Shown here: positions 2 through 31,910 of the stretch, in pieces | Layout of the letters: every line of letters starts with the position of its first letter | Numbering within the stretch: position 1 is the first letter of the stretch | DNA from: Flavobacteriaceae bacterium | GTDB lineage: Bacteria > Bacteroidota > Bacteroidia > Flavobacteriales > Flavobacteriaceae | DNA length: 39,615 nt | Assembly (NCBI GenBank): GCA_016780345.1 | Contig: JADHLZ010000013.1 | Location: 1 to 39,615 of the forward strand | Reading direction: 5' to 3' | Notes under the pieces: generated by a model | Database searches by the model: none | Seen by the model: only the letters and a program-made list of their open reading frames with translations | Told to the model about the DNA's origin: nothing | Position numbers and translations under genes: made by a program

Positions 2-736
2 ATCTTTAAAAGAACAGGGTCATTATCCAAGCTACAAAAAGCTATGGGGCATTCAAGTTTAAACTTAAGTTTAAACTACTTACGTGGATTAGAAGTTGCT
101 GAATTAAAAAAAGAAGATAATGGATATTATATTTCAACAAAATTTTTTCTGCCTAGTGTAAATGCATATTCAATTTTAGATTATCATATTTCATACGATG
201 GAACCCTATTAGTGACAAATAAATTAGACTTTAAGGGTGAATTCGATGGAAACGAAATCCCTAGAATTGGAACCAGTTTTCAGTTAAATTCACTATTTGA
301 TTACGTCGAATGGTATGGTCGAGGTCCACATGAAAATTATATCGACCGTAAAGAATCTGCTTTTATGGGCTATTACACTAAAAGAATATCTGAGATGAAG
401 TTTGAGTACGCTAGACCACAAGAAAACGGCACCCGAATTGATACAAAAAAATTAATTCTAAAAGATGATAAAGGCAAAGGAATAATTTTTGAAGGACTAC
501 CAAAGTTTTCATTTAGTATTCATCAAAACACCATAGCAGATTATGATGGAGGAATTGAAAAGGCACAAAAACACTTAAATGATATTAAACCTAAAGACCT
601 AATTCAAGTAATTATTGATAAAAAACAAATGGGTGTTGGCGGTGATGACTCTTGGGGGGCAAAGCCACATCAAAAATATATGATCAATTCAGATGACTTC
701 ACTCACTCATATAAAATAACTCCTATTTTTAAATAA
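2..736 (+). CDS. Beta-galactosidase (GH2), C-terminal part, cut by window start
   Basis: The reading frame is open from base 2, so the gene starts outside the window and only about 244 C-terminal residues are seen. The segment matches the last domain of long LacZ-type GH2 enzymes (beta-galactosidase small-chain domain): YGRGPHENY, then RPQENGTR, and near the end MGVGGDDSWG, whose Trp lines the galactose site in E. coli LacZ. The enzyme would hydrolyse terminal beta-galactosides. In Bacteroidota such proteins are usually exported to the periplasm, but the signal peptide would lie upstream. A GH43-like lipoprotein gene follows 16 bp later on the same strand, which suggests a shared glycan-use operon. 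Family confident; substrate unknown. Confidence 0.9.
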   Translation: MFKRTGSLSKLQKAMGHSSLNLSLNYLRGLEVAELKKEDNGYYISTKFFLPSVNAYSILDYHISYDGTLLVTNKLDFKGEFDGNEIPRIGTSFQLNSLFDYVEWYGRGPHENYIDRKESAFMGYYTKRISEMKFEYARPQENGTRIDTKKLILKDDKGKGIIFEGLPKFSFSIHQNTIADYDGGIEKAQKHLNDIKPKDLIQVIIDKKQMGVGGDDSWGAKPHQKYMINSDDFTHSYKITPIFK

Positions 737-1726: not shown

Positions 1727-2266
1727 ATGAAAAATACTTTTATTTACATAATGCTTGTCATGTTTTTAATCAGCTGTACAAAAAGTCAGCAGCAAAATTC
1801 TGAGTTGAACATAGGCTCTGCTTTGATGGATGGAAATACTGAAATGACTCCAATTGTTGTTGGGGAAACTTCAAATCAGGATATCTGGTTAAAATATATT
1901 CAAGCACATAATGATAAAAATTTAGATATTATTGCGGAAATAAATGCTGAGGACTGGGAAGGTTATACTGCAGACGGTAGTGTAGTAAAAGGGAACCAAG
2001 CACACATCGAAATTTTAGATAATTGGTTTAAAAATGCAAATCCAAAATGGGAAGTAAAATGGATGATTGCTAATGCTGCAAAAAATAAAGATGGTGTCGT
2101 TGAGCAATGGTTAACAACTGGAAATGATTATACTGACATTGATGAGAATGGTAAAGAAATTTTTGAACATAATGTTCACGACATTCTTTTTAAAGATGGC
2201 AAAATAAAGAAAATCAATGTTTATAAAAGAGCAAAAGCTCTAGTTGAAGCAGATTTTTCTTATTAA
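1727..2266 (+). CDS. NTF2-like (SnoaL-type) lipoprotein
   Basis: 179 residues. The signal peptide ends in a lipobox (FLISC, Cys17), followed by about 35 low-complexity residues and then an NTF2/SnoaL-like cone-fold domain (about residues 50-175): IWLKYIQAHNDKNLD, a central region rich in W and D, and a closing strand HDILFKDGKIKKINVYKR. These domains bind small ligands or act as small enzymes, so no reaction can be assigned. It is one of at least three secreted NTF2-like proteins in this window (see also 9241-9684 and 12796-13581). A promoter-like sequence lies just upstream, so it may be monocistronic. The fold call is good; the function is unknown. Confidence 0.7.
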   Translation: MKNTFIYIMLVMFLISCTKSQQQNSELNIGSALMDGNTEMTPIVVGETSNQDIWLKYIQAHNDKNLDIIAEINAEDWEGYTADGSVVKGNQAHIEILDNWFKNANPKWEVKWMIANAAKNKDGVVEQWLTTGNDYTDIDENGKEIFEHNVHDILFKDGKIKKINVYKRAKALVEADFSY

Positions 2267-2343: not shown

Positions 2344-2559
2344 ATGAAAAAATTAGAAGAATTTATATATTCAGTTAAGTACCTTCCTCAAACATTATAT
2401 TTTGGTTCTCTTGGATTGATTGGATATGACTTCTATTGTTATATTGTTAATGAAACAGAGTTTCTTAATCCTTTCTTAAGATTTCCATTATGGATTATCT
2501 TTTTTTTAATGTCAGGTTTTGGCGTTGAAAGATATAATAAGAATAAAAAGAAAAAATGA
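2344..2559 (+). CDS. Small membrane protein, unknown function
   Basis: 71 residues. Two hydrophobic stretches (about residues 15-35 and 45-62) are joined by a short loop, and the protein ends in a lysine-rich tail (YNKNKKKK), which suggests a cytoplasmic C-terminus. No family recognised. Its stop overlaps the start of the next gene (ATGA at 2556-2559), so the two are probably translationally coupled and the small protein may act with the Kazal-domain lipoprotein. No obvious ribosome-binding site. Confidence 0.55.
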   Translation: MKKLEEFIYSVKYLPQTLYFGSLGLIGYDFYCYIVNETEFLNPFLRFPLWIIFFLMSGFGVERYNKNKKKK

Positions 2560-3113
2560 AAAAAATTATTCTATTGTTTCTATTTATTTCATTTATATTT
2601 TCTTGTTCCAATACTGATGATGTAAGTAAAACACCTGAAATTAAGGGTCAATATATTCTTCAAAATGTAAGTTGCTTTTGTAACCTCGATAACTATGATT
2701 TTACTAAAAATCAACTTTGGTTTTTCCCTGAACAGGATTTGTTAGTTAGTAAAGGAGATATTAACGATGGCATATTTATTAGCAAACCCAATGAACCCTC
2801 AAAATTTTTGATTTATGATGGGGTTTTAACTTTAAATGATAACGAGAGAGAATATACAATTGAGGCTAAACAAAATGAAATAATTTTATCATACATTGAC
2901 AATCCTAATATCGCTGATGATGAAATTACATATGTATTTAAAAAAGGAAATGCCGAAATAGAATGTATAAACCCTAAAGCTATTTCAATTGATACTATGT
3001 GTACAAAGGAATATGACCCTGTATGCGGATGTGATGGATATACTTATTCCAATCCTTGTGTTGCAAAAAATTATGGAGTTAGTTCATATAAAATGGGTGA
3101 ATGTTCAAACTAA
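2556..3113 (+). CDS. Lipoprotein with C-terminal Kazal-like domain
   Basis: 185 residues. The signal peptide ends at FIFSC (Cys17). Residues 30-130 form a beta-rich, lipocalin-like region (strands such as YILQNVSC and ILSYID) that I cannot name. The last 40 residues show the Kazal-type protease-inhibitor cysteine pattern: DPVCGCDGYTYSNPC, then Ala-Lys and a final GEC. Kazal domains usually block serine proteases and are known in some bacterial secreted proteins; whether this one inhibits anything is inference. It overlaps the upstream membrane-protein gene by 4 bases (ATGA). Its stop codon is the first three bases of a 31-bp repeat that recurs inverted after clpB. Confidence 0.7.
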   Translation: MKKIILLFLFISFIFSCSNTDDVSKTPEIKGQYILQNVSCFCNLDNYDFTKNQLWFFPEQDLLVSKGDINDGIFISKPNEPSKFLIYDGVLTLNDNEREYTIEAKQNEIILSYIDNPNIADDEITYVFKKGNAEIECINPKAISIDTMCTKEYDPVCGCDGYTYSNPCVAKNYGVSSYKMGECSN

Positions 3114-3141
3114 ACCATAGGCATATCTTCTTCTTTTAATT
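3111..3141 (+). repeat. Left arm of 31-bp inverted repeat around clpB
   Basis: Positions 3111-3141 are the reverse complement of 5919-5949 with a single mismatch (3115 against 5945), including 26 uninterrupted matches (3116-3141 with 5919-5944). The core reads CATAGGCATATCTTCTTC. The arm includes the stop codon of the Kazal lipoprotein gene and lies 200 bp before the clpB start. I see no direct target duplication outside the two arms. The 200 bases between arm and clpB contain no gene and no CIRCE element. Confidence 0.9.
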
Positions 3142-3341
3142 AAGTAAAACTGTATGCAAGCTGAGAAGAATCAATCAAGTAATTCTTGTAATGGATAAAG
3201 CCTATTTTGTAGATTAAATATTTTAGTAATAAACATATTTGATAACACAACATTATGTCGTGGTTTTCAATTGTTTATATGTCATAATGGCACATTAAAT
3301 CTTAAGGAATATATTTTGATTACAAAAAAGTAAAAAGAAGT

Positions 3342-5924
3342 ATGAAAACAGATCAATTTACTTTTAAAACACAAGAGATTCTTGAAGAATCACAACAAAA
3401 CGCATTAGAAAAAAATCATCAAACTGTAGAAAATACCCATATATTGAAATCTATTATTGAAAATGATAAAAACATTTTTCCATATGTATCTAACCAGTTA
3501 GAGATTGATGATAAATTAGTTAGTAAGACTATTGATAAGATGATTGATTCCATTCCGATTGTGAAAAGTGAATTTGCTGGGTTTTCACAGAACTCATCAA
3601 AAACACTAATGAAGGCAATCAGTCACTCTAAAAAAATGGGTGACAGTTATGTTTCAGTAGATCACCTTTTAATTTCATTAATTGATTCTAACGATGAAAT
3701 ATCGAAGGTCCTTACTGGATATGGTTATACTCTAGATAAAGTAAAAAAAGTATTAAGTAATATGAGAAATGGAGAAAATATAAACTCATCCTCCTCAGAT
3801 ACAAATTTTAATTCAATTGAAAAATATGCAGTTAACTTAGTTCAAAAAGCAAGTGAAGGTAATTTAGACCCCGTCATTGGAAGAGATGATGAAATTAGAA
3901 GGGTATTACAAATACTTTCAAGAAGATCTAAAAACAATCCAATACTTGTAGGCGAACCAGGAACTGGAAAAACAGCAATAGCTGAGGGTCTAGCAAAAAG
4001 AATTATAGAAGGTGATGTCCCAGAAAATTTAAAAGATAAATTAATTTTTGCTTTGGATATGGGGGCATTAATTGCTGGAGCAAAATACAAAGGTGAATTT
4101 GAGGAAAGATTGAAATCAGTAATAAGGGAGGTTGTTGAAAGTGATGGTAGAATAATTTTATTTATTGATGAGATTCACACTCTTGTTGGAGCTGGAGGAG
4201 GTCAAGGAGCAATGGACGCTGCAAATATTTTAAAACCTGCATTAGCGAGAGGAGAGCTAAGAGCAATTGGCGCAACTACCCTAGATGAGTTTCAAAAATA
4301 TTTTGAAAAAGATAAGGCTCTTGAAAGAAGATTTCAAAAGGTATTTGTTGATGAGCCTAATATTGAAGATTCTATATCGATATTGAGAGGAATCAAAGAA
4401 AAATATGAAGCACATCATAAAGTAAAAATATTAGATGAGGCATTAATTGGAGCTGCAAAATTATCTAGCAGATATATTTCTGATAGGTTTCTTCCAGATA
4501 AAGCAATTGACCTTATTGATGAAGCAGCTTCAAAATTAAGATTAGAAATAAATTCAAAACCTGAGGAACTAGACAACTTAGAAAGAAAGATAAGACAAAT
4601 AGAAATTGAATTAGTTGCAATCCATAGAGAGAAAGACAATACAAAAATAAAAGAATTAAAAGATCAATTATCAAAACTCAAAGAAGATAGAAATTCAATT
4701 TATACTAAATGGGAAAATGAAAAAAATGTAATTGATAAGGTTCAGCAAACAAAAATAAATATAGATTTATTAAAATCTGAATCTGATAAATATGAAAGAG
4801 ATGGTAACTATGCAAAAGTAGCTGAAATAAGATATGGAACTTTAAAGGAGCTTCAAATGAAACTGAAAGAATATGAAGAAGAAATGGCCAAACAATTTAG
4901 TGAAAACTCATTATTGAACGAAGAAGTAACTTATGATCATATAGCAGAGGTTGTATCTAAATGGACGGGGATTCCAGTTTCTAAAATGCTACAATCTGAA
5001 AAATCTAAGCTTCTTGAATTAGAGAAAGAAATATCAAAAAGAATGGTTGGTCAAATGGAAGCTGTTCAATCAGTCAGTGATTCAATAAGAAGAAGTAGGT
5101 CTGGGCTGCAAGATGAAAATAGACCAATAGGAAGTTTTTTATTTCTTGGAACAACCGGTGTTGGAAAAACAGAGCTTGCTAAATCCTTAGCAGAAATCTT
5201 GTTTGACGATGAACAAAACATTGTTAGAATTGATATGAGTGAATATCAGGAACAACACTCTGTAAGTAGATTAATAGGTGCACCTCCTGGATATGTAGGA
5301 TATGATGAAGGTGGTCAGTTAACAGAAGCTGTAAGAAGACGACCCTACTCTGTTATTTTACTAGATGAAATTGAAAAAGCTCACCCTGATACTTTTAATA
5401 TTCTCCTTCAATTACTAGATGAGGGTAGACTTACAGACAGTAAAGGTAGAACTGCAGATTTTAGAAATACTATTGTAATAATGACAAGCAATATTGGAAG
5501 TAGCGAGATTCAAAAATCATTTGAGGAAATTGTAGATTTTGATAAGGCAAAAAATGAAGCAAAAGAAAGATCAATGACATTATTAAAAAAATCTTTAAAA
5601 CCTGAATTTTTAAATAGAATAGACGATATAATATTATTCTCACCATTGACAAAAAAAGAAATCAGAAGGATTGTTGAACTTCAATTTCAAAAAGTTTCAA
5701 GTAAATTAAAAAATAGAGAAATTGAAATATCTATAACCGAAGAAGCATTAAATAAACTTTCAGAATTAGGTTTTGATCCAGAATACGGTGCGAGACCAGT
5801 CAAAAGAGTTATACAAAAGAATATACTTGACAATCTTAGTAAAATGATTCTCTCCGAAAAAGTAAATTCAAAAAATGAACTTATAATTGATTGTTTTAGT
5901 GATGAAATTGTAGTTAGAAATTAA
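3342..5924 (+). CDS. clpB: ATP-dependent disaggregase chaperone ClpB
   Basis: 860 residues, the normal length of ClpB. It extracts and refolds aggregated proteins with DnaK/DnaJ as a cytoplasmic hexameric AAA+ ring. Domain order is complete: Clp N domain (1-145), first AAA+ module with Walker A GEPGTGKT near 204 and DEIH, a charged coiled-coil middle domain (about 395-525) that separates ClpB from ClpA/ClpC, and a second AAA+ module with GTTGVGKT near 603, the pore loop GYVGYDEGG and sensor GARPVKR. The N domain looks divergent. It stands alone on its strand and its last codons and stop lie inside a 31-bp repeat arm, so the gene and its promoter sit between inverted repeats. Whether the genome has a second clpB cannot be seen here. 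Confidence 0.97.
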   Translation: MKTDQFTFKTQEILEESQQNALEKNHQTVENTHILKSIIENDKNIFPYVSNQLEIDDKLVSKTIDKMIDSIPIVKSEFAGFSQNSSKTLMKAISHSKKMGDSYVSVDHLLISLIDSNDEISKVLTGYGYTLDKVKKVLSNMRNGENINSSSSDTNFNSIEKYAVNLVQKASEGNLDPVIGRDDEIRRVLQILSRRSKNNPILVGEPGTGKTAIAEGLAKRIIEGDVPENLKDKLIFALDMGALIAGAKYKGEFEERLKSVIREVVESDGRIILFIDEIHTLVGAGGGQGAMDAANILKPALARGELRAIGATTLDEFQKYFEKDKALERRFQKVFVDEPNIEDSISILRGIKEKYEAHHKVKILDEALIGAAKLSSRYISDRFLPDKAIDLIDEAASKLRLEINSKPEELDNLERKIRQIEIELVAIHREKDNTKIKELKDQLSKLKEDRNSIYTKWENEKNVIDKVQQTKINIDLLKSESDKYERDGNYAKVAEIRYGTLKELQMKLKEYEEEMAKQFSENSLLNEEVTYDHIAEVVSKWTGIPVSKMLQSEKSKLLELEKEISKRMVGQMEAVQSVSDSIRRSRSGLQDENRPIGSFLFLGTTGVGKTELAKSLAEILFDDEQNIVRIDMSEYQEQHSVSRLIGAPPGYVGYDEGGQLTEAVRRRPYSVILLDEIEKAHPDTFNILLQLLDEGRLTDSKGRTADFRNTIVIMTSNIGSSEIQKSFEEIVDFDKAKNEAKERSMTLLKKSLKPEFLNRIDDIILFSPLTKKEIRRIVELQFQKVSSKLKNREIEISITEEALNKLSELGFDPEYGARPVKRVIQKNILDNLSKMILSEKVNSKNELIIDCFSDEIVVRN

Positions 5925-5949
5925 AAGAAGAAGATATGCCTATGATTTA
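5919..5949 (-). repeat. Right arm of 31-bp inverted repeat around clpB
   Basis: Reverse complement of 3111-3141 with one mismatch. It covers the last two bases-plus-stop of clpB and 25 bases beyond. Read on the - strand it ends in a pyrimidine-rich run (TCTTCTTCTTTTAATT). The distance between the arms is 2777 bp, almost exactly one clpB gene with its upstream region. Confidence 0.9.
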
Positions 5950-6073
5950 AGGAAGGTTTTTGTTTTGGAATTTAAAAGCGAAAAGGTTTGAATGAGAGCT
6001 AACCATAGCAATCAAACAAACCAATTCATTTTGGGAAGTGCGAATGTACAATAAATAAAAAGATTAATTTAAA

Positions 6074-6265
6074 TTAATTTTTTAAGTTTTTCTTTTTAAA
6101 TAAGTTTTTCCAATCATTCCAACTCATAGCAAGACCTCCAAAAATAAAACCTAAACCAATTAAAAACTCATTATTAGATAATTCATATAGTCCCCATGCT
6201 ATAGCACCTAAAGAAACAAGTATTGAAGTTATAATTAAAGATTTTGCATATTTTACTTTTTTCAT
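6074..6265 (-). CDS. Small two-helix membrane protein
   Basis: 63 residues with two clear hydrophobic helices (about 8-29 and 33-48), a basic N-terminus (MKKVKYAK) and a basic tail (LFKKKNLKN). No family recognised. It lies 36 bp after another small membrane-protein gene (6302-6424) on the same strand, and the two may be co-transcribed. The amphipathic layout and clean start argue for a real gene, but the product is uncharacterised. Confidence 0.55.
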   Translation of the reverse strand: MKKVKYAKSLIITSILVSLGAIAWGLYELSNNEFLIGLGFIFGGLAMSWNDWKNLFKKKNLKN

Positions 6266-6301
6266 AATCTATGATTTAATAATTAATACTATTATGTTTC
6301 A

Positions 6302-8589: not shown

Positions 8590-9012
8590 CTAGTGACAAC
8601 TAACATTATATTTTTTTAATCTCCAATAATTGTAAGGAAGTGGAGTTATAAACCCTGTAACTAACATAATTGGAACCACCCACCATGTTAACATCGCCCC
8701 ACCAGTTAGTGCCCAATCTGTTAGGTTCATTGATAATTCCATCGATAACATAGAAATAAAACTCATTCCAAGTGCTGTTTTTAAAGCGATTTTAAAGCTC
8801 ATTTGTTTTAAAAGAATTATTGTTTCTAAAATAATTGATGTAAGAAGTCCATTAATCATAGCAAGACCCATTATTTCAAATGTGTCCCAATTATTATCAA
8901 CATTTTGAAAATAAAAAATAGTTCCAAAATCTCCAATTGAGCAACCTGCCAGGCACCATAATGTATTTATTTTTGCTCTTTTCCAAGTATGCTTGCATTT
9001 CCAACTAATCAT
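8590..9012 (-). CDS. DUF4396 membrane protein
   Basis: 140 residues. The N-terminal part has the family's hallmark spacing: HTWKRAKINTLWCLAGCSIGDFG, abbreviated as HTW near 9, CLAGC near 21 and GD near 27. Three to four membrane helices follow, with a conserved-looking MELSMNLTDW and a final WWVVPIMLVTGFITPLPYNYWRLKK. DUF4396 proteins are polytopic membrane proteins of unknown function, often found near metal-handling genes. The conserved Cys pair and Met-rich helix would fit copper or another soft metal, but that is inference. No partner gene is adjacent. Confidence 0.75.
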   Translation of the reverse strand: MISWKCKHTWKRAKINTLWCLAGCSIGDFGTIFYFQNVDNNWDTFEIMGLAMINGLLTSIILETIILLKQMSFKIALKTALGMSFISMLSMELSMNLTDWALTGGAMLTWWVVPIMLVTGFITPLPYNYWRLKKYNVSCH

Positions 9013-9065
9013 AATAATACGATAATGAAAAGTAAAGTTAGGCTATAATTATTAAATTTAATTTT

Positions 9066-9227
9066 GTGAGAGCTAAATATTGTAAATTATGTGAAAAAGA
9101 ATTTTCTGTAATGTACAGAATACAATATGATTCAACAAAAAAATGGAAATTTGTATGTCAAGCATGTTTACTGATTGTAAAAGAAAACAATTTATACTAT
9201 AGATATGGGGGAACTTGGAAAAAATAA
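9066..9227 (+). CDS. 53-residue zinc-ribbon-like protein, GTG start
   Basis: GTG at 9066, TAA at 9225-9227. The peptide has two Cys pairs (CKLCEKEF near residue 6, then VCQACL near 31) in a zinc-ribbon arrangement and a tail YYRYGGTWKK that I recognise as typical of small conserved flavobacterial proteins. It reads as a compact zinc-binding module, perhaps RNA- or DNA-binding. The GTG start keeps the first Cys pair; the next in-frame ATG (9111) would lose it. A TAATTTTG sequence overlaps the start, so the true transcript start may lie elsewhere. It ends 13 bp before the next gene. Confidence 0.55.
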   Translation: MRAKYCKLCEKEFSVMYRIQYDSTKKWKFVCQACLLIVKENNLYYRYGGTWKK

Positions 9228-9240
9228 TATATTTAAAAAT

Positions 9241-9684
9241 ATGAAAAAAATAGTTCTATTAATTTTAATTCCCTTGCTGTCTTATTCTCAAAGTTCTGAG
9301 ATTAATAATATTAAATCTTCAATTGAAATTTTTTTTGAAGGCTTTCACAAAAAAGATTCTGTACTTATGAAATCTATTTTACATAGATCATTTGGTCTTC
9401 AATCTGTTGCAATACGTGAAAATAAAGTTTCAAAAAAAGATATAAACGGAAATGAATTTATATCTATTGTTGTTAACAGACCAGAAAAACCAATCTGGAA
9501 TGAAAAACTTCTCTCTTATGAAATTAAAGTTGATGGTCCTTTAGCAAACGCTTGGGTAAAATATGAATTTTGGATTGATGAAAAACTTAGTCACTGTGGA
9601 GTTAATTCAATTCATTTACTTAGAGACGGTATTGATTGGAAAATATTCAGTATTTCAGACTCAAGAAGAAAAGATTGTAATTAA
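9241..9684 (+). CDS. Secreted NTF2-like protein (lumazine-binding type)
   Basis: 147 residues from the ATG at 9241. An ATG 36 bases upstream is in frame, but it lies inside the zinc-ribbon gene and would bury the signal peptide. From 9241 there is a good Sec signal (MKKIVLLILIPLLSYSQ). The mature region looks like the NTF2-like 'putative lumazine-binding' family: INNIKSSIEIFFEGFHKKDS, MKSILHRSFG, GPLANAWVKYEFWIDE and a final DGIDWKIFSISDSRRK. The pattern of one helix-rich half and long strands with W and D fits the fold. Such proteins are usually periplasmic with unknown ligands. Co-directional with the zinc-ribbon gene, 13 bp after it. Confidence 0.65.
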   Translation: MKKIVLLILIPLLSYSQSSEINNIKSSIEIFFEGFHKKDSVLMKSILHRSFGLQSVAIRENKVSKKDINGNEFISIVVNRPEKPIWNEKLLSYEIKVDGPLANAWVKYEFWIDEKLSHCGVNSIHLLRDGIDWKIFSISDSRRKDCN

Positions 9685-9902: not shown

Positions 9903-10081
9903 GTGTTGAAATAATTTTTTTTATTGGGGTACTTGTTTTTACAATTTTCATTATTGGAGCTCTATTAATTCCAGGAGAAATTAAAGAAGATGTTAAGGAT
10001 AGAACTAAAACTGATGTAATGGATTATGATGGAATTGGCAATTACGGAAGAATTCCAAATAAGAATTCTAAATTAAAATGA
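9899..10081 (+). CDS. Small membrane-anchored protein
   Basis: 60 residues: a hydrophobic helix (residues 4-26), then a polar cytoplasmic-type tail with EIKEDVKDRTKTDVMDYDG and an ending rich in Asn and Lys. It is coupled to the upstream 54-residue membrane protein by an ATGA overlap and converges with the DoxX gene, overlapping its 3' end by 9 bases. No recognised family; possibly a two-subunit small membrane complex with its partner. Confidence 0.5.
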   Translation: MSVEIIFFIGVLVFTIFIIGALLIPGEIKEDVKDRTKTDVMDYDGIGNYGRIPNKNSKLK

Positions 10082-10516
10082 TAAGAAAATTATTTTTAGT
10101 TTTTGTTTTAGATATTTTAATCCTCCTGTAGACCATAGTGCCCAAAATATTAGTATTGGTTGAAAAAATAATCTCAGGATTCTTTGATTGTTTGAATACA
10201 TTCTTAATCCATCAAGTTCATGAATATATTGATTAATATTTCCAGGAAAAACTAGGACATAAAAAACACCCAAAACTAACCCTGTTTTTGCTTTAAATTT
10301 ACCTCCCCAAACCATCAATATTCCAAAGATAATTTCTATATAACCGGAAATTAAAACGATCATGTCAATAAAGTTTTCATCTGATGTTAACCAACGTGGG
10401 ACTTGAGCTTGAAATTCAATTCTTCTAAAAAATAAATGGGCTATTCCTATATAAATCATAATCAAACCAAGAACAACTCGAAAGATATTTTGAATAATAG
10501 ATGTTTTAGCAATCAT
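10073..10516 (-). CDS. DoxX-like membrane protein
   Basis: 147 residues with four hydrophobic helices. The first has RVVLGLIMIYIGIAHLFF, and the pattern of a helix, a loop with VPRWL, a helix ISGYIEIIFGILMVWGG, then two more helices and a final WALW matches DoxX/DoxD-type small membrane proteins of Bacteroidota. Their role is unclear; some are linked to quinone or redox chemistry. It stands alone on the - strand, converging with 9899-10081 with a 9-bp overlap of coding ends and no terminator hairpin between them. Confidence 0.7.
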   Translation of the reverse strand: MIAKTSIIQNIFRVVLGLIMIYIGIAHLFFRRIEFQAQVPRWLTSDENFIDMIVLISGYIEIIFGILMVWGGKFKAKTGLVLGVFYVLVFPGNINQYIHELDGLRMYSNNQRILRLFFQPILIFWALWSTGGLKYLKQKLKIIFLSF

Positions 10517-10909: not shown

Positions 10910-11323
10910 TTAATTTTTTTTATGTAAAAAAACAGTGTGCATTAGGGTGGTTGCCAACTTATTTTCTGAATTATAAATCTCTCCTTTAATTGAAGCTATA
11001 TTTTTTCCTTGGTGAATTATTTTAGCTAAAACTGTTACTTTACCGTCTAAAAGCGGTCTATGATGAATGCTGTGTAAATTCGTTGAATTTGGATAAAGTT
11101 TACCTCCAGATTCATAAACAAGTAAAATACTTGTAGCATCATCAAGCATTGAAGTCATTTGTCCGCCTTGTACATTTTTATTAGGATTAAACGTTAAAGA
11201 GCTAAATTCTGCACCAAGTTTAAGATATCCTTTTTTGTAGTCAATGAATTCGAAGTTAAATAACTTTCCTGTTCCTTCGTTATTTTTCCAAAATTCCAAT
11301 AACTTATCAAAATCTTCTTTCAC
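10910..11323 (-). CDS. PaaI-type hotdog-fold acyl-CoA thioesterase
   Basis: 137 residues of a single hotdog domain. GGQMTSMLDDATSILLVYES (residues about 52-71) is the central helix with the Gly-Gly and the Asp/Asp positions of PaaI-like thioesterases, followed by LHSIHHRPLLDGKVTVLAKIIHQGKNI. The enzyme should hydrolyse an acyl- or aryl-CoA thioester in the cytoplasm; substrate unknown. The start is the first Met of a short acidic N-terminus. It is followed 3 bases later by a small membrane-protein gene on the same strand. Confidence 0.8.
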   Translation of the reverse strand: MKEDFDKLLEFWKNNEGTGKLFNFEFIDYKKGYLKLGAEFSSLTFNPNKNVQGGQMTSMLDDATSILLVYESGGKLYPNSTNLHSIHHRPLLDGKVTVLAKIIHQGKNIASIKGEIYNSENKLATTLMHTVFLHKKN

Positions 11324-11369
11324 TTTGTATTTATTTTTAAAAAAACATAAAAATAACTGTTTTAGATGG

Positions 11370-11377
11370 TATATTTA
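11370..11377 (+). promoter_or_regulatory. TATATTTA -7-like box close to start codon
   Basis: Same octamer as at 10560 and 23562, here 7 bases before the ATG at 11385 in the divergent gap between the thioesterase gene and the Cys-rich gene. No strong -33 match. Confidence 0.35.
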
Positions 11378-11384
11378 TCTATAA

Positions 11385-11660
11385 ATGAGAAAAATACAAA
11401 CTTTTGATAGTGGACAATGGAATGCTTTCTTTAGATGTTCTAACGATTTATGTAGGGCTTGGTTTCCATACAAAGTTATTGAGACTTATTTCGATGAGTC
11501 TTTAATTAAAGGGAGAGAGGGTAAAACAAAATGGCAAAAAATTTTTCATCATGAAAAATACTCTGGAAATGTCAAAAGAAAAAAATGTAAAAAGTGTAGA
11601 AATGAAATTTTGGTTAGAGAAGTCAATCATGTTGACTCAGGATCAAATTTTGGCTACTAA
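11385..11660 (+). CDS. Small Cys-rich (probable zinc-binding) protein
   Basis: 91 residues. Four cysteines are placed as a zinc ribbon: RCSNDLCRAW near 17 and KKCKKCRNE near 69. Between them lies a basic stretch with FPYKVIETYFDE and GKTKWQKIF. The high charge and ribbon suggest nucleic-acid contact, but I do not recognise the family. It ends 10 bases before the DUF1028 gene on the same strand. Confidence 0.55.
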   Translation: MRKIQTFDSGQWNAFFRCSNDLCRAWFPYKVIETYFDESLIKGREGKTKWQKIFHHEKYSGNVKRKKCKKCRNEILVREVNHVDSGSNFGY

Positions 11661-11670
11661 AACTATTATT

Positions 11671-12723
11671 ATGAAAAAAATATATAATCTTTTTAAAAAA
11701 TCGACAAATTTTAAAATGCTTTTAATCTTTGGTTTGATCAAAAAGCTTATAGTTAGTTTAATACTTATATTGCCCTACTTGTCAAACAGTCAAACTAACG
11801 CATACAAAGACAAATTTGCTCATACTTATTCAATTGTAGCTATGGATGAAAAAACTGGGGAAATGGCTGTTGGTGTACAAAGTCACTGGTTTTCAGTAGG
11901 GACTTTGGTTAGCTGGGGTAAATCTGGTGTTGGTGTTGTTGCTACTCAATCGTTTGTAAATCCAAGTTATGGGCCAATGGGACTTAAAATGATGGAAAAT
12001 GGGATGTCTGCTAAAAATACTTTAAATAAACTTACAAATGAAGATGAGGGAAGAGATTATCGACAGGCAGCTATGCTTGATATAAATGGATCTGTTGGTG
12101 CTTTTACTGGGAAAAGCTGTATAGAAAGTGCTGGGCATTATGTAGGTAAAAATTTTTCTGTACAGGCAAATATGATGTTAAACGATGATGTTATTCCTTC
12201 AATGAAAAAAGCTTTTTTAGAAAACGCACATCTCCCTTTAGCTGAAAGAATAATCACAGTTTTTGAGGCTGCTGAAAAAGTTGGAGGAGATGTAAGAGGA
12301 AAACAATCTGCTGCAATAATTGTTGTAGGAAATAAAAAAACAGAAAACGTTTGGGAAGACAAAAAAATTGATTTAAGAGTTGATGACAGTGATGATCCTG
12401 TTAAAGAAATTAAAAGACTTTTAAAAGTTCACAGAGCATATGAGCACATGAACAAAGGAGATGTTGCAATCGAGGAAAATAATACTGAAAAAGCATTGAT
12501 TGAGTACTCTAAAGCTCAAAGTTTATTCCCAGAAAATCATGAAATGAGTTTTTGGAAAGCAATTGCTTTATTAAATAATGGAGAGAAAGAGAAAGCCAAG
12601 GATATTTTTAAATTTGTTTTTCAAAAAAATATTAATTGGAAAAAATTAATTTACAGATTGCCAAAATCTGGAATAATATCAATGTCTAAAGAAGAACTTG
12701 ACCTTTATTTTTCCGACATATAA
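11671..12723 (+). CDS. Secreted DUF1028 protein with C-terminal TPR-like region
   Basis: 350 residues from the ATG at 11671; upstream in-frame Met codons lie within the preceding Cys-rich gene and are rejected. A later ATG (11716) also gives a clean signal peptide ending SNSQ. The N-terminal 230 residues are DUF1028, an Ntn-hydrolase-like fold: THTYSIVA-like start (AHTYSIVAMDE), MAVGVQSHWFSVG, VGVVATQSFVNPSYGP, DINGSVGAFTG and GDVRGKQSAAI. Then DLRVDDSDDPVKEIKRLL leads into about 90 residues that look like tetratricopeptide helices (AIEENNTEKALIEYSKAQ). DUF1028 proteins are periplasmic or secreted with no proven reaction. Architecture DUF1028-TPR is common in Bacteroidota. Confidence 0.85.
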   Translation: MKKIYNLFKKSTNFKMLLIFGLIKKLIVSLILILPYLSNSQTNAYKDKFAHTYSIVAMDEKTGEMAVGVQSHWFSVGTLVSWGKSGVGVVATQSFVNPSYGPMGLKMMENGMSAKNTLNKLTNEDEGRDYRQAAMLDINGSVGAFTGKSCIESAGHYVGKNFSVQANMMLNDDVIPSMKKAFLENAHLPLAERIITVFEAAEKVGGDVRGKQSAAIIVVGNKKTENVWEDKKIDLRVDDSDDPVKEIKRLLKVHRAYEHMNKGDVAIEENNTEKALIEYSKAQSLFPENHEMSFWKAIALLNNGEKEKAKDIFKFVFQKNINWKKLIYRLPKSGIISMSKEELDLYFSDI

Positions 12724-12762
12724 AATTAATTATATCAAAACATTCCTTTTAGGATTTTTTAT

Positions 12763-12770
12763 TACATTTG
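12763..12770 (+). promoter_or_regulatory. Perfect -7 box TACATTTG
   Basis: TACATTTG matches TAnnTTTG exactly, 25 bases before the ATG at 12796. The -33 region is poor. It follows a weak hairpin (TCCT...AGGA then six T) at about 12744-12760 that could end the DUF1028 transcript. Confidence 0.45.
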
Positions 12771-12795
12771 GTTTCTAAATAAAAAAATTATTACT

Positions 12796-13581
12796 ATGAA
12801 AAACCTTGTGTTAATGTTTCTTGTTTCAGCATTATTTGTCAGCTGTAACTCAAACCCCAATTATGAAAAGAATTTAGCTACTGCTCAAAAATTATTTGAA
12901 TTGCATGGTGAAGAAAAACTTGAAGAACAACTTGCTCTAGTTAGTAAAGACATAGAAATTATCACTCCTATGTATGGTTCTGAACCAGGAAATTATGATA
13001 CTTACGCTACAATGCTCAAAGGGTATCATGATACATTTGAGGATATTAAATATACTCCAACTGTATGGCTTCCAGGATCTAATCCTGAAGGCAAATTAGA
13101 TGGAAGTGTTAGAACATATGGAACTTGGACTGGCAAAAACTCAATCACTGGAAAAGAAATTAATCTTAAGGGTTATTGGTACTTTAACTTTGATGGTGAA
13201 GGTAAAGTAATTACTCAAGGTGACTTTTTTGATATTGGCGGAATGATGCAAGCTGTTGGTCCAAAAACACCTGTTTTAGTAACACTAAAAGTTAAACCTG
13301 GGAAAAAACAAGCCATGATTGATTTACTTAATACTCCTGATGGATTAGATGCTACAAGAAGCTATGATGGAAATTTATCTCTTGAAGCTTTCTTTAATGA
13401 TGCTACTAATACTTATTATGTTTATGGGAATTGGGCATCTTATGATCATTATCAAGCTTATCTTGATTGGAGATTTAATGATGATGAAAGTAAATTAGCA
13501 CAACAAGTTATTGCACTTTGTGAAGGTGGAGAAAAAGGGTTAATTCCTTTATTCCCTAATACAGACTATGCTTCATTTTAA
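12796..13581 (+). CDS. Lipoprotein fusing NTF2-like and ABM-like domains
   Basis: 261 residues. The signal peptide ends at LFVSC (Cys17). Residues 22-150 look NTF2/SnoaL-like (helix NLATAQKLFELHGEEKLEEQ, then IEIITPMYGSEPG, RTYGTWTGKN, YWYFNFDGEGKVITQGDFFD). Residues 155-255 look like an antibiotic-monooxygenase-type dimeric alpha/beta-barrel (TPVLVTLKVKPGKKQAMIDLL, LEAFFNDATNTYYVYGNWAS, YLDWRF). The two ligand-binding folds on one lipoprotein suggest an outer-membrane or periplasmic binding or redox role. It is strongly supported by codon pattern and by the terminator that follows. It converges with a secreted protein whose two halves also look barrel-like. Confidence 0.7.
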   Translation: MKNLVLMFLVSALFVSCNSNPNYEKNLATAQKLFELHGEEKLEEQLALVSKDIEIITPMYGSEPGNYDTYATMLKGYHDTFEDIKYTPTVWLPGSNPEGKLDGSVRTYGTWTGKNSITGKEINLKGYWYFNFDGEGKVITQGDFFDIGGMMQAVGPKTPVLVTLKVKPGKKQAMIDLLNTPDGLDATRSYDGNLSLEAFFNDATNTYYVYGNWASYDHYQAYLDWRFNDDESKLAQQVIALCEGGEKGLIPLFPNTDYASF

Positions 13582-30824: not shown

Positions 30825-30860
30825 TTAATAAAAATACATTTTTTTAATCAAACTTTTAAA

Positions 30861-31841
30861 TTAAATTAATGAATTATAGCCTAACTTTTGTCTAACTCTA
30901 TTTAGGACTTCATTTGCTACAACATTGGCTTTTTCAGCACCACAGCTAAGTATTGAATCTAATTCCTTTTTATTTGTCATAAAATAATTAAATTTTTCTC
31001 TTTCATATGAGTAATTAGACAATATGAAATTCAAAAGCTCTGTTTTTGCATGCCCATAACCAAATCCACCTGACATGTAATTGCGTTTCATTTTATCAAT
31101 AGATTTTTTATCAGCAATTAATTTAAAAATTTTAAAAACATTACAGTTATTATAATCTTTTGGTTTGTCAATTGGTGTACTATCCGTTTGTATGCTCATA
31201 ATTTGTTTTTTCAAAAGCTTTTCTGGTAAAAAAATGTCAATTATATTTCCCTTTGATTTGCTCATCTTTTCTCCATTTGTCCCTAAGACCAATTGTGTTT
31301 CTTTATTAACGTCACCTTTAGGGAGTACAAAGGTTTTTCCATAAATATTATTAAATCTTGAAGCTACATCTCTGGTCATTTCCAGGTGTTGTTGTTGATC
31401 TTTTCCAACTGGGACTTTATCAGCATCATATAACAATATATCTGAAGCCATTAACATGGGATATGTAAAAATACCTACATTAACGTCACTTAATCTCTCC
31501 GATTTATCTTTAAAAGAATGAGCAAGGGTTAATCTTTGAAAAGGAAAATAGCATGATAATATCCATGAAAGCTCAGTTGCTTGGGGAACATCACTTTGTC
31601 TATAAAAAACTGTTTTATCAGTATTTAGACCAAAAGAAAGCCAAGTTGCTGCCGTTGCATATGTATTATTTTTTAATATCCCTTTGTCTTTAATTTGAGT
31701 TAAAGAATGCATATCTGCAATAAACAAAAAAGATTGGTCTTTAGACTTATTGGCTAAGCCAATTGCCGGTATAATTGCTCCTAAAATATTTCCTAAATGA
31801 GGAGTCCCTGTACTCTGTATTCCTGTTAAAATTCTTGACAT
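30861..31841 (-). CDS. trpS: Tryptophan-tRNA ligase
   Basis: 326 residues from the ATG at 31841; a longer frame from 31892 adds 17 residues not found in family members. It charges tRNA-Trp. Class I synthetase motifs: SRILTGIQSTGTPHLGN (HIGH-type, TPHLGN), the KMSKS loop in GEKMSKSKGNIID, and GKDQQQHLEM with the tryptophan-binding region. First gene of a four-gene - strand run (trpS, HU/SPOR, thioesterase, PqqB-like). Divergent from plsC with 69 bp between starts. Confidence 0.96.
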   Translation of the reverse strand: MSRILTGIQSTGTPHLGNILGAIIPAIGLANKSKDQSFLFIADMHSLTQIKDKGILKNNTYATAATWLSFGLNTDKTVFYRQSDVPQATELSWILSCYFPFQRLTLAHSFKDKSERLSDVNVGIFTYPMLMASDILLYDADKVPVGKDQQQHLEMTRDVASRFNNIYGKTFVLPKGDVNKETQLVLGTNGEKMSKSKGNIIDIFLPEKLLKKQIMSIQTDSTPIDKPKDYNNCNVFKIFKLIADKKSIDKMKRNYMSGGFGYGHAKTELLNFILSNYSYEREKFNYFMTNKKELDSILSCGAEKANVVANEVLNRVRQKLGYNSLI

Positions 31842-31910
31842 TTTATTTGTATAATAAGCAAAAGTAATGGTTTTGATAATTATATCCTTCATTTACTTAC
31901 ATTTACAGTC

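Follow-up and report, generated by a model that had tools for sequence, protein, structure and literature searches.

A 31-bp inverted repeat around clpB in a Flavobacteriaceae contig: probable recombination sites of an integron-like gene-cassette system

Why should a single chaperone gene, clpB, be enclosed by a 31-bp inverted repeat whose arms lie on stop codons? The question is raised by contig JADHLZ010000013.1 of a Flavobacteriaceae bacterium (assembly GCA_016780345.1), of which positions 1 to 39,615 were analysed as one stretch of 39,615 nucleotides, termed the window. The reverse complement of one arm (3111-3141) agrees with the other (5919-5949) at 30 of 31 bases, in a run of 26 matches, one mismatch and four matches. 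The TAA stop codon (3111-3113) of a gene for a Kazal-domain lipoprotein (2556-3113) forms the first three plus-strand bases of the first arm, designated site 1, and the TAA of clpB (5922-5924) lies inside the left end of the second arm, site 2. When a 19-base part of the arm was searched with up to three mismatches, 0.02 matches were expected in shuffled versions of the window and two were observed, both without mismatch. Between the arms there is a single gene, clpB (3342-5924), with 228 bp ahead of its start; among the open reading frames (ORFs) of at least 80 amino acids listed for this interval, the only other one is an antisense frame within clpB, and none encodes a transposase. In all these points, namely the near-perfect repeat, its placement on two stop codons, its improbability by chance, and the enclosure of one gene plus its upstream region without a transposase, the initial annotation of this DNA was accurate. 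A transposon with terminal inverted repeats was considered and rejected, as no transposase is present between the arms and the arm is a site found throughout the genus; no target-site duplication was seen by eye outside the arms.

On comparison with related genomes, we consider it quite probable that Flavobacteriaceae-type bacteria have an integron-like gene-cassette system and that both arms are recombination sites belonging to it, with clpB most likely as its cargo. The arm is a dispersed sequence. The genome to which the window belongs (1.39 Mb, 78% complete) contains three copies within three mismatches, the third of which (C34:3310-3340, two mismatches) likewise begins at the stop codon of a gene. 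Copies are present in 19 of the 22 genomes of the genus (51-93% complete), up to 10 per genome and often several per contig, and a reversed control pattern gave no match in the 22 genus genomes. The search of the genome and its relatives for the 31-mer, which the annotation had proposed, thus showed that its suggestion of "two copies of a dispersed 3' element" was correct within its limits: copies of the arm lie at gene 3' ends throughout the genus. Within a family sample, 20 of 349 genomes carry the site (up to two mismatches). An exact scan of named genome records with a 32-base form returned 21 stretches, all titled as Bacteroidetes lineages, one of them Marinoscillum, and all being metagenome-assembled genomes or similar records; we take the organisms, from their record names, to be marine. 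Viral contigs contained neither exact copies of a 27-base part of the site nor relatives of the recombinase described below. One site with its flanks gave no match in phage and plasmid collections, and the only recombinases found in phages and plasmids were distant ones, less than 30% identical.

Read in one frame, the site encodes LKEEDMPMV followed by a stop codon, and the sequence preceding it in many copies encodes TYLRGLEVAE. By sequence, the 31 bp is the 3' end of a predicted tyrosine recombinase gene in other genera. In G011, the last 77 amino acids of this recombinase stand at a contig start and end in the site, and of 10 full-length recombinase genes (347-369 amino acids) examined in other genera of the family, four (in G156, G208, G361, and G343) end exactly at the stop codon of the site. 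Two rearranged recombinase genes, shortened in G361 and fused in G311, also stop there; in the latter (L168, 4260-5978), the recombinase end appears by eye to be fused in frame behind a helicase-like sequence, which may be a recombination product or an assembly error. The Phage_integrase domain (PF00589) was matched by all four recombinases tested (3e-10 to 3e-13), and the same four remained far below the cut-offs of the XerC, XerD, and integron integrase profiles, with scores of 18.5-28.3 bits for TIGR02249 (IntI) against a cut-off of 265 bits. A predicted structural model (mean predicted local distance difference test score, 84; predicted template modelling score, 0.51) has three parts, one rich in strands at the N terminus, one helical, and one catalytic, whose placement relative to each other is uncertain in view of the latter score. 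Its top structural match is lambda integrase (1z1b), and IntI (2a3v) ranks twelfth; as modelled, the recombinase is of the lambda type and not an IntI. In a sample of the phylum, 2 of 395 genomes contained a related recombinase (1e-30), both in another family.

The sites are arranged in arrays. In stretches fetched from 32 genomes, 156 sites were found; the array and flank counts given here refer to sites with at most four mismatches, in stretches that were fetched because they hold sites. Among the 66 pairs of neighbouring sites no more than 5 kb apart, 61 are co-oriented and five inverted, and the four inverted pairs besides that around clpB hold other genes. The 61 same-orientation intervals have a median spacing of 961 bp and contain one ORF of at least 60 amino acids in 28 cases, none in 6, and two or more in 27. 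Most of the ORFs in these intervals (91 of 104) run towards the right edge of a site, and in this gene direction each of the three frames of the site contains a stop codon. An ORF of at least 50 amino acids stops on the last three bases of the site in 44 of 141 TTA-ending sites, compared to 60 of 3315 control GTTTA words (Fisher 4e-36). A whole system is visible in G156 (L161): the recombinase gene and a convergent neighbour meet at their 3' ends, one site forming the end of the former and holding the stop of the latter, and more sites and genes follow beyond. As a side observation, 43 ORFs in array loci (L066, L068, L076, L078, and others) open with near-identical signal peptides (MKKLILLLLFIPLVSFGQ and close forms), and many ORFs with this common signal peptide are otherwise dissimilar by eye, as if cassettes share leaders.

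The DNA flanking the sites switches at the site. Homologous right flanks (65-100% identity) were found for 25 site pairs falling into 10 gene groups, the longest common stretch extending up to 400 bp at 100% (G002 and G004), and none of the 25 pairs shares the left flank beyond 60 bp; left flanks were compared only more than 60 bp from the site, where at least 200 bp were required. The arms are therefore best read as recombination sites. A further 76 pairs have some left-flank match and different right flanks, a loose count that takes in the recombinase genes themselves and overlapping neighbours, and no pair shares both flanks. With respect to the window itself, the stretch from site 2 to position 6069 is 82% identical to G005; the match begins exactly at the left edge of the site, and another gene stands there in the place of clpB. 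The last 60 bp of the Kazal gene together with site 1 (3054-3147, 94 bp) match G021 at 95%, up to the end of the G021 contig, and on the other side of the matching site G021 has a recombinase tail.

The case for clpB as cargo comes from its distribution, its divergence, and its neighbours. A full-length ClpB query (1e-200) had a match in the window's genome only, that is, in 1 of the 22 genomes of the genus. A C-terminal query retrieved from the window's genome its ClpB and one weaker second match; of the other genus genomes, 18 yielded one weaker match only (1e-77 to 1e-107), read as ClpC, and three none. In other genera of the family, ClpB is present at 59-65% identity in 48 of 50 genomes. 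The window ClpB has a median identity of 63% to 29 ClpBs of the family, and the medians of these 29 proteins themselves are 80-85% for 24 of them and 70-79% for five. As for the neighbours, of the 12 ORFs that precede 10.6 kb in the window (recombinase tail aside), five match proteins located between sites elsewhere, counting only ORFs between two sites less than 6 kb apart, compared to none of the 30 later ORFs; positions 10964-12999 have DNA matches to array loci that fall outside this strict count. Rare in the genus (1 of 22 genomes), unusually divergent, and situated among homologues of cassette genes, clpB is probably cargo, and acquisition is likelier than retention. The "small cargo element" of the initial annotation therefore holds to the extent that clpB was probably acquired; it fails in that the repeats adjoin many genes and are not the ends of one transposon. 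No site was found near the 29 family clpB genes, within 231-291 bp upstream or about 1.5 kb downstream, and the motif TGTCATAATGGCACA, which occurs at 3280 upstream of clpB in the window, was absent from all 29 relatives' clpB upstream regions (231-291 bp each).

From these observations a more extensive proposal can be formulated, which we favour by a modest degree. A cassette system would have arisen independently of integrons, in which the terminal 3' part of a lambda-type recombinase gene, with its stop codon, serves the enzyme as recombination site; the 31-bp ends would tag unrelated genes, supply them with stop codons, and let them shuffle between species and genera, and clpB would have been re-acquired in this way in one species of a clpB-less genus. 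We infer that the recombinase is the agent and that it would recombine DNA at copies of its gene's 3' end. Through such site exchange, units often consisting of one small gene each would be gained, lost, and reordered, the cassettes presumably moving as circles. In a typical array, the genes run in the direction of the recombinase and have the site at their end. The clpB gene, for which the other 21 genus genomes gave no match, is enclosed by two inverted sites, and its arrival is most likely due to this system.

Several observations weigh against this proposal and against the cassette interpretation in general. Six of the 10 full-length recombinases do not end exactly at the stop codon of the site: those of G296 and G334 have variant ends, that of G143 runs through, that of G300 diverges, and in G040 and G190 the tail is lost earlier. 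None of the genus genomes (G000 included) yielded such a full-length gene with the tail, only fragments; in the window's genome, at 78% completeness, only a 39-codon tail at the window edge was detected, and G000 carries an intact integrase of another type (420 amino acids). Because no intact recombinase of the type was found in the genus, the arrays there may be inactive or may rely on an enzyme missing from the assembly. Additional sites are present in 11 of 23 genomes of the family sample that have a recombinase tail and in 8 of 326 without one (Fisher 4e-10); this association speaks for the system but is partly circular, some tail matches being site remnants, and 11 of the 23 tail-positive genomes lack any site within two mismatches. 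Core differences in flank-sharing pairs are contradictory, so that the crossover point is not placed by them. Concerning clpB, its base composition is ordinary (GC content of 30.3% vs 29.5% for the window) and the closest ClpB relative found (65%) belongs to the same family, for which reasons a retained, fast-evolving clpB is possible. Its sites are inverted and it runs opposite to the usual gene direction; therefore, simple cassette excision would not free it. Finally, homologous recombination at short repeats would leave some of the same signs.

This last point underlies the rival explanation that survives best, according to which the 31-bp copies are passive repeats at which ordinary homologous recombination swaps genes, the likeness to recombinase tails reflecting past spread only. 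It would account for the missing intact recombinase in the genus, and the longer recombinase-tail remnants at many sites could act as short homology; they define class A, with 48 of the 132 sites that were classed, taken for their full flanks from 137 (up to five mismatches). We nevertheless regard it as unlikely, since sites of different classes, and pairs with differing left flanks, have only about the 31-bp core in common, and 31 bp is short for homologous recombination. In addition, the one orientation (61/66), the stop-codon placement, and a higher conservation of codons at the recombinase end all suggest that the site DNA itself is under selection: in eight recombinase ends chosen for a clear tail (7 of 13 inspected plus the G011 fragment), synonymous codons agree in 156 of 189 same-residue pairs within the last nine codons and in 615 of 966 upstream, the pairs not being independent.

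The initial annotation had also envisaged a switch by which clpB and its promoter are inverted; that such a switch is active appears rather improbable, and no support for it was found. Tyrosine recombinases can in principle invert the DNA between inverted sites, the arms match at 30 of 31 bases, and the inverted clpB pair is of a kind that permits inversion and not deletion. Against a switch stand the exceptional nature of the inverted layout (5 of 66 neighbouring pairs), the four other inverted pairs with different genes, and the failure to find an intact recombinase of the site type in the genus, including the window's genome (78% complete). Moreover, clpB keeps its own upstream region, and flipping would therefore not obviously switch it off.

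Very improbable is the view that the sites are dif-like and used by the housekeeping recombinases XerC/XerD, as in the pdif modules of Acinetobacter plasmids. Such dif modules have, in outline, the same look of genes bounded by short inverted recombinase sites as seen around clpB, and 21 of the 22 genus genomes have integrase-family matches, which in most genomes are taken for the chromosomal Xer pair, the site occurring in 19 of the 22. However, XerC/XerD are expected nearly everywhere in the family, and the site is absent from 329 of the 349 family genomes (XerC/XerD were looked at in the genus only); pdif modules depend on host XerC/XerD and reside on plasmids, whereas the site described here is the end of a different, longer recombinase and seldom alternates in orientation (5/66). 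The weakest alternative, a common transcription terminator or 3' RNA element with no recombination role, agrees with the position at gene 3' ends but is scarcely credible, as no terminator-like site was found at 3000-6300, both strands of three site types had no stable fold as DNA (0 to -0.4 kcal/mol, z 0.9 to 1.6), Rfam gave no match in the window, and the flanks switch at the site.

The cassette system proposed for these sites resembles integrons in its arrays of often single-gene cassettes, in a repeated site at gene 3' ends with one prevailing orientation, in a dedicated tyrosine recombinase, and in the occurrence of arrays lacking an intact recombinase. It is not an integron, because the recombinase, with a predicted extra N-terminal part, is not an IntI and because the sites do not fold as attC hairpins, a possibility ruled out by the six unfolded strands mentioned above. 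Further differences are that the site coincides with the end of the recombinase gene and that the genes point towards the recombinase. The site ends resemble integron R boxes by eye only, a likeness for which no claim is made. According to the available part of IntegronFinder 2.0 (PMC9024848), one complete integron is named in Bacteroidetes proper, that of Salinibacter ruber M1. A precedent for the position of the site is the Mx8 integrase, whose recombination site (attP) lies within the 3' end of the int coding sequence, so that exchange changes the tail of the protein (available text of PMC6070905; the integrase is also named in that of Islander, PMC4383910). Here, the overlap with the recombinase gene 3' end is exact in 4 of 10 full-length genes, and in contrast to Mx8, which integrates one prophage, the site is repeated beside many unrelated genes. 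Excerpts of PMC8618304, PMC9668308, PMC8138268, and PMC3478194 were drawn on besides. No description of this cassette system was found in the literature searched, which left out bioRxiv and most subscription journals.

Islands integrated at tRNA genes, among them the tycheposons, are comparable insofar as some sites follow a common flank just 3' of tRNA or transfer-messenger RNA (tmRNA) genes; they differ in that most sites described here lie away from tRNA genes (13 of 155 within 500 bp, compared to 5.5% of random positions, a weak association). The common flank, of 60 to about 200 bp between the 3' ends of various tRNA or tmRNA genes and the site, was noticed in L216, L230, L235, L241, L243, L247, and L249, and also in L080, where no tRNA was found; it resembles the end of an island integrating at tRNA genes.

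If the proposal is true, the capture of gene cassettes has more than one origin; enzyme and kind of site would differ from those of integrons, the gene direction would be opposite, and the phylum concerned appears to have very few complete integrons, as far as the accessible text of PMC9024848 indicates. The system would help to account for gene turnover in small-genome flavobacteria, would illustrate the transport of a housekeeping chaperone as a cassette, and would add a new tool for site-specific recombination based on a short site.

Table 1 Features of the window around the clpB-enclosing sites, with positions counted from its first base
Feature	Position	Strand	Remarks
Recombinase tail	2..118	+	39 codons near the recombinase end; site broken after GAAGATA; at contig edge
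Lipoprotein gene, SnoaL-like	1727..2266	+	Pfam match below cut-off; 85% identical to a G004 protein between two sites; no site here
Kazal-domain lipoprotein gene	2556..3113	+	Pfam Kazal_1, 1.6e-7; homologue (55%) between sites in G009
Site 1 (first arm)	3111..3141	-	31 bp; minus-strand reading AATTAAAAGAAGAAGATATGCCTATGGTTTA; weight-matrix score 55.7 bits
Kazal stop to clpB start	3114..3341		Past site 1, no DNA matches to other loci compared (blastn, E 1e-8)
clpB (860 amino acids)	3342..5924	+	TIGR03346 score 1229.8 bits (cut-off of 1232.1 narrowly missed); sole gene between the sites
Site 2 (second arm)	5919..5949	+	Opposite orientation to site 1, one base different; weight-matrix score 47.6 bits
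Right flank of site 2	5950..6069		Also present in G005, next to a site of this kind and a tRNA-His gene
Gene	8590..9012	-	83% identical to a protein of G156 (another genus) inside an inverted site pair
Gene	9205..9684	+	55% identical to a G012 cassette protein
Gene	10073..10516	-	62% identical to a G007 cassette protein

Beside the cassette-like genes listed in Table 1, no decayed sites were detected in the window by the weight matrix. The recombinase tail at the contig edge is fused in frame to a C-terminal piece of lacZ (119-736). Nine relatives within the genus have LacZ-type frames of 974-1100 amino acids, and the fusion (2-736) may stem from an integration event in lacZ or from a chimeric contig end. 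A small hairpin lies beside site 2 at 5986-6017, and in its G005 copy (L219, 2999-3030) a paired change from GCTA/TAGC to ACTA/TAGT keeps the stem. The window also contains a second 31-nucleotide inverted pair (9034-9064 and 30858-30888, 90%), one copy of which lies at the end of the gene at 30861-31892 and whose sole other match in the genus is in G015, with three mismatches.

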